Below the pieces are notes generated by a model. The model saw only the letters and a program-made list of their open reading frames with translations. It did not search any database and was not told where the DNA came from. A program made the translations under genes and the position numbers. From Candidatus Eiseniibacteriota bacterium (GTDB lineage: Bacteria; Orphanbacterota; Orphanbacteria; Orphanbacterales; Orphanbacteraceae), in NCBI GenBank assembly GCA_029262235.1, contig JAJCZU010000008.1, forward strand, positions 321,621 through 385,620: a stretch of 64,000 nucleotides of DNA. Direction: 5' to 3'. Positions 12,186-36,214 of this stretch are shown here, one piece after another. Every line of letters begins with the position of its first letter. Within the stretch, counting starts at the first letter, position 1.

Positions 12186-12746
12186 CTATCGAAAGAGCTG
12201 CTTGAGGGATCCCCAGCTCGATCCCTCGGTTTGCGTTGGACCTGCACAAAGGGATATCGGAACCGAGCCCTGGAAGTTACCGGAGTTGAATGAAATATCA
12301 GTCCAGTTCGATTCGAGCTCATCAACTGCTACCAGACACTCGCACTCCTGAATCACGTACCAGACTGTTGCGTAGTGAACAGGAGGTTCGATCAGAGGTT
12401 CGCAAAAGGAGAAGCCGGCTGCACCCAGCGTGAGGCAATCGCCGGAGATCTCGGGGGGCAGGGGAGTCCAGCCGATTCGGTACAAGACGGTGTCGACAAC
12501 CGCACAAGAAGCGCACAGCACGACCTGCGCCGAGCAAAAGAATTCCGGATGGTGAAGGTAAACGTCGACTCGCACCGTGTCCGCCGGTGATCCGCCGATT
12601 ACATCCGGCCCATTCCCGAGTACGCCGTCCGCATCGAGCTCGACGAAAGTTTGTGCTGGAAGGTTCGGCGGAATTGCAAGCGTGATAAGGAGTGAAAGAA
12701 ACATAGCGAAAGTACTCATGGACCACTGCCGACGTGTCTCTCTCAT
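12186..12746 (-). CDS. Secreted SSW-tail protein, array member 5 (divergent)
   Basis: This is the last gene of a five-gene array. A signal peptide is followed by FVELDADGVLGNGPD, the array's N-terminal aspartate-rich motif, and a beta-rich body containing several cysteines. The protein ends in TQTEGSSWGSLKQLFR, the shared C-terminal tail. It is the most divergent member in the body, and its tail is not overlapped by another start codon, yet the tail is kept. The start at 12746 overlaps the stop of the preceding gene by 4 bp (ATGA). Function is unknown. Confidence 0.75.
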   Translation of the reverse strand: MRETRRQWSMSTFAMFLSLLITLAIPPNLPAQTFVELDADGVLGNGPDVIGGSPADTVRVDVYLHHPEFFCSAQVVLCASCAVVDTVLYRIGWTPLPPEISGDCLTLGAAGFSFCEPLIEPPVHYATVWYVIQECECLVAVDELESNWTDISFNSGNFQGSVPISLCAGPTQTEGSSWGSLKQLFR

Positions 12747-13276
12747 CGAAACAGTTCCTTCACCAGCGACCAGGAGGACTCTTCGGTCGCGGTCGTCGGG
12801 CCGAACCGCGCGGGGATGTTGTTCGTGAATAGTCCGGTCTCGAAATCATAGCTAAACCAAAATGTCGGTTCCGAAATGACGACCCTTCCCGGTCCCGGAC
12901 CGTGATAGAGAAAGCGGGCGCTTCCATGCAGGAGAGGTGGAAGGTACACGACAAAATCGAAAGTGACGGAAAGGACGTACCATCCTCCATCGCCGAGGTC
13001 TTCGATCGGTTGGTTCGTCCAGAGGAGTTTGTAGGCATAGGAAAGAAGCGACGCGTTGATCCCGCGTATCACGAATCCCACGGCATGATATCCCGTCAAA
13101 GGGACAGCCGGCATGACCCATGCATCCACCTGGATCGTATCCCCGATCTGTGCGATCTGATGATCGGGCCCGTTCCCGAGCGTGCCGTCGAGATCGAGTT
13201 CGATATAGGGACCAGCGGCCCCGGCTGCTTCGAAAGACAGTGTGAGGGCGAGCAGCGCGGGCAGGCACGCTTTCAT
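12743..13276 (-). CDS. Secreted SSW-tail protein, array member 4
   Basis: A signal peptide ends near residue 20 (AGAAG). The mature protein opens with YIELDLDGTLGNGPDH, then IGDTIQVDAWV, a run of predicted beta strands, a GPGPGRV turn and TNNIPARFGP, and ends in TATEESSWSLVKELFR. The alternating hydrophobic strands after GDTxxVD resemble an immunoglobulin/cohesin-like sandwich, and DLDG-GNGPD resembles a calcium-binding loop; both are inferences. It overlaps its neighbours by 4 bp on each side, and AAGGA inside its own tail codons serves the next start. Confidence 0.75.
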   Translation of the reverse strand: MKACLPALLALTLSFEAAGAAGPYIELDLDGTLGNGPDHQIAQIGDTIQVDAWVMPAVPLTGYHAVGFVIRGINASLLSYAYKLLWTNQPIEDLGDGGWYVLSVTFDFVVYLPPLLHGSARFLYHGPGPGRVVISEPTFWFSYDFETGLFTNNIPARFGPTTATEESSWSLVKELFR

Positions 13277-13818
13277 CGGAACAGCTCCTTCACCTTTGAC
13301 CAGGAGGAGGATTCGGTCGCGGTCGACGGGCCGAATGTGGCGTCGATGTTGTTCGTGAAGTGGCCGGTCTCGAAGTTCTGATTCAAGTAGGTCGTGGGTT
13401 CCTCTATGGTGATGCGGCCCGTGCCGGAGCCCTGATACAAGTACTCACCCGAGCCGAAGAGGTACGGGGGTTGGGACCAGGCAAAGCAGAAAACGGTCGC
13501 CTCGAAATACCAGCGCCCGTCCCCGAGATCCACTCCGGGCGTGTGCGTAAAGCAATAGCCCTGATAATATGACCAAGACGTAAGTGCTGCGTTGATTCCC
13601 GAGAGCGTCAATCCATAGTGTCCGATCAAGACTCCCGGCGCTGCCGCCAAACCCCAGACATCTACACTCAACGTGTCACCGATATCCGCAATCAGATGAT
13701 CGGGCCCGTTCCCGAGCGTGCCGTCGAGATCGAGTTCGATATAGAGCTCTTGGGCGGGAGCTACGTTTGCACCCAACCCGAGCGCGAGGAGAAGTGACAG
13801 CCAGACCATCCCTTTCAT
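13273..13818 (-). CDS. Secreted SSW-tail protein, array member 3
   Basis: This 181-residue paralogue has a clear signal peptide (ending in ANVAPAQ), the YIELDLDGTLGNGPDH opening, an IGDTLSVDVW segment, the GSGTGRI turn, the FETGHFTNNID segment and the tail STATESSSWSKVKELFR. It has a cysteine pair in the middle not shared by members 1 and 4. Translational coupling is shown by ATGA overlaps at both ends. Confidence 0.75.
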   Translation of the reverse strand: MKGMVWLSLLLALGLGANVAPAQELYIELDLDGTLGNGPDHLIADIGDTLSVDVWGLAAAPGVLIGHYGLTLSGINAALTSWSYYQGYCFTHTPGVDLGDGRWYFEATVFCFAWSQPPYLFGSGEYLYQGSGTGRITIEEPTTYLNQNFETGHFTNNIDATFGPSTATESSSWSKVKELFR

Positions 13819-14357
13819 CGGAACAGACCCTTCACCTGCGACCAGGACGACGATTCGGTCGTCGTCGTCGGGCCGAAGGTTGCGCCTATGTTGTTCGTGA
13901 AGGTTCCAGACAGGAAGTCATGGTCGAGCCATGTCAGCGGCTCGACTACGTTCAGTCGGCCATTCCCCGGGCCCGTGTACTGATAGGACGCGATGCCGTG
14001 GAGCCACGGTGGTGAAAAAGTAATGAAGCAAAACACTGTGGCAGTGAAAGTCCATATATTGGGGGCGGATGGCTCCCATGATGTCGTGTAACAGGTCGCT
14101 GGGATGTAGCTCAAGAAGTCTGCGTGTTTGGAATGGATCGAGAATCGGGCCTGAGCCAAAGGGCTGCACGCCGGGTCATGCGTAACCCAGCACCAGACCT
14201 CGACCGTATCTCCAACCTGGGCGAGACCGTGATCGGGACCGTCTCCGAAGGTCTGATTCAGATCGAGCTCGATGGCGTGCCCTCCGTCAGCCCAAACGAC
14301 TGATCCGGAAGCGAGCATCATCGAGACCCAAAAAGTCGTGGCGTACAACATTCTCAT
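13815..14357 (-). CDS. Secreted SSW-tail protein, array member 2
   Basis: This 180-residue paralogue has a signal peptide ending near VVWA, an altered opening motif (IELDLNQTFGDGPDH), VGDTVEVWCWV, the GPGNGRLN turn, TFTNNIGATFGP and the tail TTTESSSWSQVKGLFR. It carries several cysteines in the first half. The altered aspartate loop with the same spacing suggests that the loop is under functional constraint but tolerant. It overlaps both neighbours by 4 bp. Confidence 0.75.
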   Translation of the reverse strand: MRMLYATTFWVSMMLASGSVVWADGGHAIELDLNQTFGDGPDHGLAQVGDTVEVWCWVTHDPACSPLAQARFSIHSKHADFLSYIPATCYTTSWEPSAPNIWTFTATVFCFITFSPPWLHGIASYQYTGPGNGRLNVVEPLTWLDHDFLSGTFTNNIGATFGPTTTTESSSWSQVKGLFR

Positions 14358-14890
14358 CGGAACAGCTCCTTCACTTGCGACCAGGAGGACGACTCGGTCG
14401 CGGTCGTCGGGCCGAAACGCGCAGGGATGTTGTTCGTGAACTGGCCGGTCTGGAAGTAGTCATCCAGGTACTCTGTCGGTTCTTCCACGCGAACTCGTCC
14501 CGGGCCCGGACCGTGGTAGAGGTACTCGGCTCGTCCGAACAAGTAAGGCGGCACATATCCTATGAAACTGAAGGTGGTCGCCTCCACATACCAGCGCTCG
14601 TCACCCATGTCGACTGCAGGAGGCGCTGTCCACCCTAGCAGGTGGGTCCAAGATTCCAACGAGGCATTGATCCCGCGCAGGGCGAAACCGACGTGGAAGT
14701 AAAACAACAACGGAACCGCTGGCATGACCCATGCGTCGATCAGCAGCGTATCCCCAATCTGCGCGATTTCGTGATCGGGCCCGTTCCCGAGCGTGCCGTC
14801 GAGATCGAGTTCGATGTAGGGACCTTGCGCCCATGATTGCGCCGGGATCAGAAGCAGCGTCGTGATCAGGATAGTGAGTGGCCGGTTCAT
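14354..14890 (-). CDS. Secreted SSW-tail protein, array member 1 (first gene)
   Basis: This is the promoter-proximal member, 178 residues, with signal peptide (ending SWAQ), YIELDLDGTLGNGPDH, IGDTLLIDAWV, GPGPGRV, FTNNIPARFGP and the tail TATESSSWSQVKELFR. It has its own Shine-Dalgarno sequence (GGAGG, 5 bases before ATG). Members 1 and 4 are close in sequence, which indicates duplication within the array. The divergent gene at 15049 shares the upstream region. Function is unknown; export to the periplasm or cell surface is clear. Confidence 0.75.
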   Translation of the reverse strand: MNRPLTILITTLLLIPAQSWAQGPYIELDLDGTLGNGPDHEIAQIGDTLLIDAWVMPAVPLLFYFHVGFALRGINASLESWTHLLGWTAPPAVDMGDERWYVEATTFSFIGYVPPYLFGRAEYLYHGPGPGRVRVEEPTEYLDDYFQTGQFTNNIPARFGPTTATESSSWSQVKELFR

Positions 14891-33690: not shown

Positions 33691-34428
33691 TCACCGAAAC
33701 AGTGATTTGATGTCCGACCAGGATGACGCCTCTGTTGCGGTCGGCACTTCCTGACTCCAGAACGTCACAACGAGCAGGTTGGTCGGGCCGAGCGCGTCCG
33801 AGAACGGAACGGGGGGACAGTAGACAGTACCCTGGTCTGTGTTCCCGTAGCGAACGCTGCTCCCCGTCCCCACGCCCACACCGGCGCATGCTGGCCCTCC
33901 CGCCGCGTTGGCGATGTTGTCGTCAGTCGCCGCGTAAGGGAGTGTTCCCAGGGTCCATGTCGCTGTCACCGCAACATCCGGAGAGCTCACGCTCCCGAGC
34001 GACGGGATGAAATTCCAGCGCTCAACCGGATCGTAGGGCGCGGAAGTTCCGATCGAAGCCCCGGTCAGACACCCCTGCCCGTCAACATTGTACAGATCAT
34101 AGTAAACACCGAAGAAATTGCGAGACGGGGTAGTGTAGCGCCAGTACCAGAAGCCGCCATCCATGGTCCACGTATCGCCGTTCTGCATGCCGCAGTCTTC
34201 CGCCAGATCGTAAACGACTCCGATCTGGTCTCCCCGATTGAAACCGCCGAACAGCCATGCCCAGCCACTGCACGCGTTGTAGTAGACGATCGTGCACGCG
34301 GCGGTCGCTGCTCCGCCGCTCAGAGTCGGAGAGGCGATGTGGTCCCGCGTGGCAATCGGTTCGGAGGCCACCGCAATGGGGGACAGAGTCATCAAGAATA
34401 GTGTGGCGGCGAAAAGTACTGCTTTCAT
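33691..34428 (-). CDS. Secreted SSW-tail protein of the CSGW family, member 3
   Basis: A signal peptide (ending AVAS) is followed by the family motif ACTIVYYNACSGWAW near residue 42, QIGVVYDLAEDC, a beta-rich body with paired cysteines, AAGGPACAGVGVGTGSS, CPPVPFSDALGPTNLLV and the C-terminal tail TATEASSWSDIKSLFR. The body has no resemblance to the five-gene array at 12.2-14.9 kb, but the tail is the same. GGGAG precedes the ATG. It is the most divergent of the three adjacent paralogues. Function is unknown; a cell-surface or extracellular role is inferred. Confidence 0.75.
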   Translation of the reverse strand: MKAVLFAATLFLMTLSPIAVASEPIATRDHIASPTLSGGAATAACTIVYYNACSGWAWLFGGFNRGDQIGVVYDLAEDCGMQNGDTWTMDGGFWYWRYTTPSRNFFGVYYDLYNVDGQGCLTGASIGTSAPYDPVERWNFIPSLGSVSSPDVAVTATWTLGTLPYAATDDNIANAAGGPACAGVGVGTGSSVRYGNTDQGTVYCPPVPFSDALGPTNLLVVTFWSQEVPTATEASSWSDIKSLFR

Positions 34429-34456
34429 CTGCGCTACTCCCTGGTGATTGCCCGGC

Positions 34457-35230
34457 CTATTGAAACAGCCGCTTCAGTTCGCTCCAGGACGAAGATTCCG
34501 TCGCTCCCTGCGGGCCCGCGACGCCCGTTGCCGTCGGGCAGTTCCAGACCGATCGCACGAGCAGGTTAACGGGACCGAGGCCGTCCGCAAGAACTTCGGG
34601 CGGGCATATCCCGGGGCCGCCCGGCGTGTCGCGGAACCGGAAACTCGTGCCGTTCCCGACGCCGACACCATCACATGCCGGGCCGCCGGCTGCGTTCCTC
34701 ACATTGTCGTCCGTAATCGGCTTCACGATAATGCCGAGCGCAGTCGCGACGAGCGCAATCCGGCTTTCGGTCGTAGATCCCAGTCCCGGCAGCGCGTTCC
34801 AGCCGTTCATGGGAACGACCGCGGTCGCTCCCGACCCGGTGACGAGACAGTCATTCTCGTCGACCGTGAACAGTGAGTAGCTCACGTTCGGAAACATGCC
34901 GTAGGCGCCCCCCGTCGCGTACCAGTACCAGTAATTGGCGATGTTTTCGCATTCGTGTTCTTCCCCGCCCGTACATTCACTCGCCAGGTCGTATACGACA
35001 CCGATCTTGTTCCCGATGCCCATTGTGGGAAGCATTCGCATCCAGCCGCTGCACAGATTGTAATAGATGATGGTGCACGCGCCCGCCGCGCCGCCGGGCA
35101 CAGCGCCGATGTCGTCATAGCGCGCGGATACGGGTTCCTCGATCGGCTCGGCGAATCCGAAGCCGGCGCCCGCGGCGACTGCCATCGCGAGCAGAAGAGA
35201 GACTCGAAAGAGATACGAATGATCATTCAT
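34457..35230 (-). CDS. Secreted SSW-tail protein of the CSGW family, member 2
   Basis: The start is ATG 35230, with GGAG seven bases upstream. A signal peptide ends near GFGFA. The family motif is ACTIIYYNLCSGWMR, followed by KIGVVYDLASEC and a cysteine pair around EHEC, AAGGPACDGVGVGNGTS and the tail GATESSSWSELKRLFQ. The last 129 bp of its coding sequence are identical to those of the neighbouring member 1, while the preceding region differs clearly, pointing to gene conversion or a very recent partial duplication. Confidence 0.75.
   Translation of the reverse strand: MNDHSYLFRVSLLLAMAVAAGAGFGFAEPIEEPVSARYDDIGAVPGGAAGACTIIYYNLCSGWMRMLPTMGIGNKIGVVYDLASECTGGEEHECENIANYWYWYATGGAYGMFPNVSYSLFTVDENDCLVTGSGATAVVPMNGWNALPGLGSTTESRIALVATALGIIVKPITDDNVRNAAGGPACDGVGVGNGTSFRFRDTPGGPGICPPEVLADGLGPVNLLVRSVWNCPTATGVAGPQGATESSSWSELKRLFQ
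34459..34587. repeat. 129-bp perfect direct repeat, copy 1 (3' end of CSGW member 2)
   Basis: The stretch is identical base for base to 35249-35377, 790 bp away in the same orientation. It covers the C-terminal ~43 codons including the SSW tail but not the stop codon or the more N-terminal body. Confidence 0.9.
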
Positions 35231-35246
35231 CACTTCACTCCGCAAA

Positions 35247-36011
35247 TTATTGAAACAGCCGCTTCAGTTCGCTCCAGGACGAAGATTCCGTCGCTCCCTG
35301 CGGGCCCGCGACGCCCGTTGCCGTCGGGCAGTTCCAGACCGATCGCACGAGCAGGTTAACGGGACCGAGGCCGTCCGTGTACGGAATCGGCGGGCAGTTC
35401 GCGGGATTGCCGAACCCTCCGGGCCTGAACTCGTAGCTGGTACCGTTCCCGACTCCGACGCCGGCACATGCCGGTCCACCGGCGACGTTCTTCTCGTTGA
35501 AGTCCGTAACGGGGTAAACACGATTCACGGTGCCGCCGCTGAGCGCGGTCGCGACGAGCGCTATCCGGTCTGCCGTGGTTGAACCGGCTCCGGAAATGAC
35601 GTTCCACCCCTGCATCGCGTGAATTGTCTGGTCTCCGGGTTCGGGAGTACCAGTGAGGCAATCGTTCTCGTCCACGTTCCAGAGCGCGATTCGTATATTC
35701 GGGGATCCGTAACCGTTGACACTGGCCTTCCAGAACCAGTAGTTCGCTACGTTCGTACACTCATGGCCGCTCTCCCCGGTGCACTCCGCCGCAAGATCGT
35801 AAACGACGCCGAGCCTCTGCCCCCCGGACACTTCAGGGTAGGTTCGCATCCAGCCGCTGCACAGGTTGTAATAGATGATGGTGCACGCGCCCGCCGCGCC
35901 GCCCGTCATCGCGCCGATTTCGTTGTAACGCTCGACGGCAGGTTCAGTGATTGCGCCGGCATGGAGAGGTACCGAGAGGAGCAGCAACGGCAGGAGAAGA
36001 AGGCGTGTCAT
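35247..36011 (-). CDS. Secreted SSW-tail protein of the CSGW family, member 1
   Basis: I take ATG 36011 (MTRLLLLPLLLL) because it gives a clean signal peptide; the open frame continues 16 codons upstream. The mature part shows ACTIIYYNLCSGWMR, RLGVVYDLAAEC, EHECTNVANYWFW, ACAGVGVGNGTS, CPPIPYTDGLGPVNLLV and the tail GATESSSWSELKRLFQ. The cysteines are conserved among the three paralogues and probably form disulfides outside the cytoplasm. It is the first gene of the trio. Confidence 0.75.
   Translation of the reverse strand: MTRLLLLPLLLLSVPLHAGAITEPAVERYNEIGAMTGGAAGACTIIYYNLCSGWMRTYPEVSGGQRLGVVYDLAAECTGESGHECTNVANYWFWKASVNGYGSPNIRIALWNVDENDCLTGTPEPGDQTIHAMQGWNVISGAGSTTADRIALVATALSGGTVNRVYPVTDFNEKNVAGGPACAGVGVGNGTSYEFRPGGFGNPANCPPIPYTDGLGPVNLLVRSVWNCPTATGVAGPQGATESSSWSELKRLFQ
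35249..35377. repeat. 129-bp perfect direct repeat, copy 2 (3' end of CSGW member 1)
   Basis: This is the partner of 34459-34587. Identity breaks off sharply after CCGTCCG at the inner edge. A second, shorter near-identical block exists around the CSGW motif (about 35041-35096 against 35847-35902). Confidence 0.9.
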
Positions 36012-36214
36012 TGCAGGCTTGAAACCAGATGACGGCGTGGCACTGGAAGCTCGGAGCATCGGGGGCCCTCACAATCTGCGCGTCCCCATGGGTGGAATCG
36101 CTCTAAGGGTGGATACCTATTATACGCCCCCCCGGAAGAAGTGTCGAGGGTCGGGCACGCGCGGCTCCCGGGAACTGTGTAGTTGAATATTGAATCATTG
36201 AGAGCGCAGGCGCG

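Follow-up and report, generated by a model that had tools for sequence, protein, structure and literature searches.

Pairs of genes that overlap by ATGA and carry a Shine-Dalgarno (SD) sequence inside the upstream gene were described by Huber et al. (2019) as termination-reinitiation pairs, which are typical for most prokaryote groups (PMC6728339). Surveys of 720 and 530 genomes found that an SD inside the upstream gene is the typical arrangement at overlaps (PMC6728339, PMC2784483). The SD dependence of reinitiation ranges from essential to none, depending on the gene pair tested (PMC6728339). The locus described here lies in a window of 64,000 nucleotides (contig JAJCZU010000008.1, forward-strand positions 321,621 to 385,620) from Candidatus Eiseniibacteriota assembly GCA_029262235.1, and it is a minus-strand array of five genes, 14890→12186 in window positions, of 177-186 codons each, that are joined by four ATGA overlaps and end in a conserved C-terminal tag. 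The array resembles the termination-reinitiation pairs in its ATGA overlaps with intragenic SDs. It differs from them in that the upstream 3' end encodes a conserved tag and that the arrangement recurs four times among paralogues, and coupling, in this case, is only probable. The 2009 survey (PMC2784483, citing Eyre-Walker) reports genome-wide statistics, whereas the present case is a single locus with its constrained residues in a tag. The array is very probably an operon of tandem duplicates with ordinary overlap SDs, in which the shared codons come mostly from descent or conversion of gene ends. It is one new instance of an ordinary mechanism in an unusual protein family. The genes are as follows.

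14354..14890, minus strand: array gene 1, 178 aa, signal peptide and putative cohesin-like domain, tail WSQVKELFR (open reading frame (ORF), alignment, model and PDB fold match)
13815..14357, minus strand: array gene 2, 180 aa, tail WSQVKGLFR (ORF, alignment)
13273..13818, minus strand: array gene 3, 181 aa, tail WSKVKELFR (ORF, alignment)
12743..13276, minus strand: array gene 4, 177 aa, tail WSLVKELFR (ORF, alignment)
12186..12746, minus strand: array gene 5, the last, 186 aa, with the greatest divergence in the array (32% identity with gene 1), tail WGSLKQLFR, stop codon TAG (ORF, alignment)

Start junctions and Shine-Dalgarno sites

All four junctions read CGATGA, from the final Arg codon CGA and the stop codon TGA, and the next ATG takes its A from the Arg codon and its TG from the stop codon. 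The codons ahead of the junctions read GTG AAG GAG/GGT/GAG/GAA CTG TTC/TTT, and at 4/4 junctions 8 nt separate the ATG from the end of an AAGG(A/G)N hexamer. The 16S gene in the same genome ends in GGATCACCTCCTTTC, which includes CCTCC, and AAGGAG is therefore the canonical SD match. Complementarity to the host anti-SD within the last codons of the upstream gene was found at every junction, with predicted duplexes of -5.0 to -9.2 kcal/mol.

14371-14354, minus strand: junction 1, AAGGAGCTGTTCCGATGA, SD-like hexamer at 14371-14366 and ATG at 14357-14355, anti-SD duplex -9.2 kcal/mol
13832-13815, minus strand: junction 2, AAGGGTCTGTTCCGATGA, predicted anti-SD duplex -5.0 kcal/mol
13290-13273, minus strand: junction 3, AAGGAGCTGTTCCGATGA, predicted anti-SD duplex -9.2 kcal/mol
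12760-12743, minus strand: junction 4, AAGGAACTGTTTCGATGA, predicted anti-SD duplex -6.1 kcal/mol

The original prediction placed the conserved protein tail and the SD of the next gene on the same bases. The ATGA overlaps on which it relied are read directly from the DNA, the AAGG core in the V-K-E/G-L-F-R codons with the ATG 8 nt on was confirmed throughout, and the four junctions, with a core that matches the 16S tail, support the sharing of bases between tail codons and a plausible SD. The full AAGGAG was found at two of the four junctions, and the others read AAGGAA and AAGGGT. Ribosomes very likely bind at the junction sites, as they do at most ATGA junctions.

On the preferred reading, five tandem duplicates that encode secreted, cohesin-like proteins with the C-terminal tag of the lineage form an operon. 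Through duplication with 4-nt ATGA overlaps each start would have come to lie on the final bases of the copy before it, with its ribosome-binding site necessarily falling within the last codons of that copy. The K-E/G codons of the tag (AAG-GAG, AAG-GAA, AAG-GGT), at the right distance, would then serve as that site. The sequence itself shows the overlaps, the sites and their match to the anti-SD; use of the sites by ribosomes, and a probable coupling of each copy's translation to that of the preceding copy, are inferred.

The SD strength of gene ends (a duplex at or below -3.5 kcal/mol) and their codon use were compared within this genome. The comparison drew on the tail matches listed for this genome and on about 419 kb in stretches around tails, which is not a random sample, with genes called by a home-made caller; the fourth array junction is absent from the caller's list, the last gene scoring just below the cut-off. 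An SD-strength match in the end of the upstream gene was found in 9/12 non-array ATGA pairs, versus 39% of 300 ordinary gene ends. Among tails without an overlapping start 42% are of SD strength, and the tag is therefore about as SD-like as any gene end. The dual-coding claim adds little to this, as SDs inside upstream genes are general at ATGA overlaps.

Terminal tails and related arrays

The last gene had been read as keeping the protein tail with other codons, which would make the protein layer and the SD layer separately visible.

12186..12212, minus strand: terminal tail, GGATCCCTCAAGCAGCTCTTTCGATAG, without an SD-like core, predicted anti-SD duplex -0.6 kcal/mol

Gene 5 (12186-12746) ends in CTC AAG CAG CTC TTT CGA TAG, which encodes L-K-Q-L-F-R. 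The substitutions of L for V and of Q for E alter the protein, AAG is kept, and CTG/CTC is the only synonymous change among the four quoted codons. The contrast between internal and terminal genes is thus a single case that consists mostly of amino-acid change (LKQL versus VKEL), and it does not separate the two layers. The tail codons of internal and terminal copies were also expected to differ in related arrays. They look alike in two arrays of the same family whose genes do not overlap. The tails of the four-copy array L073 read AAGGAG, AAGGAA, AAGCAG and AAACAA, and those of the five-copy array L106, from genome G004, read AAGGGC, AAGGGC, AAGAGC, AAGGGC and AAGAGC. In both, the SDs sit in the intergenic gaps, and AAGG is common in internal copies though no start depends on it.

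In 60 relatives searched for ATGA-type tails, the matches were confined to this locus, the orthologous one in G001 (a genome of the same genus), tails without an overlapping gene, and two stray pattern matches in distant genomes. The sole other candidate for an overlapping tail (L107, G004 contig C24) reads AAGAAC and has no AAGG. Its start is uncertain, with an alternative 39 nt downstream, hence it counts only as a possible counter-example. Besides the motif at the end, the tandem proteins of L107 have a tail-like motif in mid-protein (SSWTAVKMLFR followed by W), which looks like a fusion of two tailed genes by loss of a stop codon. Separately, an ATG that overlaps a tail at C8:303370 was considered and dropped, as its 192-codon frame has a codon score of -0.14 per codon, which is that of non-coding DNA.

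Origin of the shared codons

The last 30 codons of the four internal array genes show heavy codon sharing. The most codon sharing, 39/46, is found in the FTNN block (FQTGQFTNNI), which lies ~60-90 nt upstream of the stop codon and is furthest from the junction. In mid-gene windows about a third of codons are the same, and the protein bodies are only 36-61% identical. A set of three tandem tailed genes in the same window serves as a control.

33691..36059, minus strand: control set, three tandem tailed genes with no overlapping starts

Of these genes, read 36059→33691, the two upstream neighbours (34457-36059) are identical over the last 128 sense bases and mostly 55-80% identical elsewhere. 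These ends reflect recent conversion or duplication. The identical copies have AAGCGG in the tail, and each start that follows is preceded in the gap by an SD of its own. Gene ends are therefore copied between tandem neighbours together with the tag and with no role for an SD, and duplication or conversion would accordingly explain the codons of the array without selection on the SD. The shared codons would thus be owed mostly to common descent or to conversion of gene ends.

Two sets of observations weigh against this reading. First, AAGG is found in 4/4 junction tails and in 31/74 non-junction tails of this genome (p=0.037 if the copies were independent, which they are not), and, with G001 included, in 6/6 junction tails (4/4 here and 2/2 in G001) versus 40/99 elsewhere in both genomes (p=0.006 if independent). 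In the non-overlapping tails of relatives AAGG occurs in 9/25 (G001) and 12/44 (G004). Copying of gene ends deprives the 6/6 versus 40/99 contrast of most of its force. Second, G001, from the same genus, has the only orthologous array, and at the syntenic locus (L087 / L091, contig C715) gene 1 is deleted, which leaves its start joined out of frame to a remnant tail, GTGAAGGAGCTGTTCCGATG. This orphan tail directly precedes the next gene and forms a perfect AAGGAG-8nt-ATG; it has no ATG in its protein frame. Two of its protein positions have diverged (PTTATE to PRTATQ), and AAGGAG and its spacing are intact. Retention of the tail as a leader fits use of the SD, as a single case on a short contig of an assembly that is 82% complete, where the deletion could be an assembly artefact. 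In G001 the start frame of gene 1 reads on into the next protein, to which it adds 32 N-terminal residues.

A variant of copying, which is improbable, would make the block at the gene end a mobile cassette. Copying would then carry the tag, the ribosome-binding site and the start junction together, and the orphan tail of G001 would be a cassette that survives as a pure leader. If so, homogenisation of the tag and operon-like coupling would spread together.

The original prediction corresponds to joint selection, under which the tag and the SD are both maintained on the same bases and AAGGAG codons appear wherever a gene follows. The AAGG contrast and the orphan tail both favour it, as does the lower SD affinity of the terminal tail. 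The first two suggest, as no more than a hint, that descent may be supplemented by selection on the SD layer, and extra purifying selection on AAGG is no more than possible. However, the array copies are not independent of one another, and their codon identity extends about 90 nt upstream of the SD. AAGGAG is found in 10/74 tails without an overlapping start and at only half of the junctions. In L106 and L073 the mix of codons is alike in internal and end copies, and the candidate overlap of L107 lacks AAGG. Joint selection as the explanation for the array is accordingly unlikely, and the ordinary operon of copied duplicates is preferred. The array is nevertheless a tidy natural case for gauging the mutual constraint of tag and SD, since the genome offers dozens of occurrences of this one tag, some with an overlapping start and others with none.

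That the SD-like match is a pure coincidence, with AAGG being only the usual spelling of K-E/K-G (as its frequency in non-junction tails would allow) and ATGA reinitiation needing no SD (as for some of the gene pairs tested in PMC6728339), is very improbable given the enrichment of SDs at the ATGA pairs of this genome, the canonical anti-SD and the constant 8-nt spacing.

The array proteins and their tag

A Pfam search with the array proteins gave no significant match. Their relationship to cohesin modules comes from an AlphaFold model of moderate confidence (pLDDT 62.8), for which the best Foldseek matches in the PDB are cohesin modules (e.g. 5lxv, 2ccl), which resemble the model in its predicted beta-sandwich fold, with E values down to 1.9e-5 and a TM score of about 0.5. 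The array proteins are only 10-14% identical to the top matches, and they differ from cohesin modules in being stand-alone, secreted and tagged; dockerin binding is only putative here. The designation cohesin-like is a lead from the model and no proof. In GTDB contigs a single-protein query found no relatives, and an alignment query found four.

The tag has the consensus ...TATExSSWxxVKxLFR-end. The strict pattern W..[hydrophobic]K.xFR-stop has 78 matches in this genome, compared with 0 for a reversed-pattern control, and the tail is certainly not due to chance. The tag was present in 7/7 genomes of the phylum examined. The tailed proteins are otherwise unrelated and include beta-helix, plastocyanin, CHRD, C-type lectin and GEVED proteins. 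A hydrophobic N-terminus was found in 81% of tailed proteins versus 40% of other called genes. The Pfam and NCBIfam hits of 55 tailed proteins included no model for the tail and no curated sorting signal, and no description of such a tag turned up in the literature searched. One of the 55 has a weak protein-level match to floc_PepA, a PEP-CTERM protein family. The tag is a candidate sorting or anchoring signal, and its presence in a little-known phylum on many unrelated, mostly secreted proteins, with no family model, makes it a more valuable lead than the SD overlap. Non-junction tails end in the stop codon TAG in 52/74 cases, with CGG or CGC as the Arg codon, and TGA and CGA are rare save where the overlap requires them.
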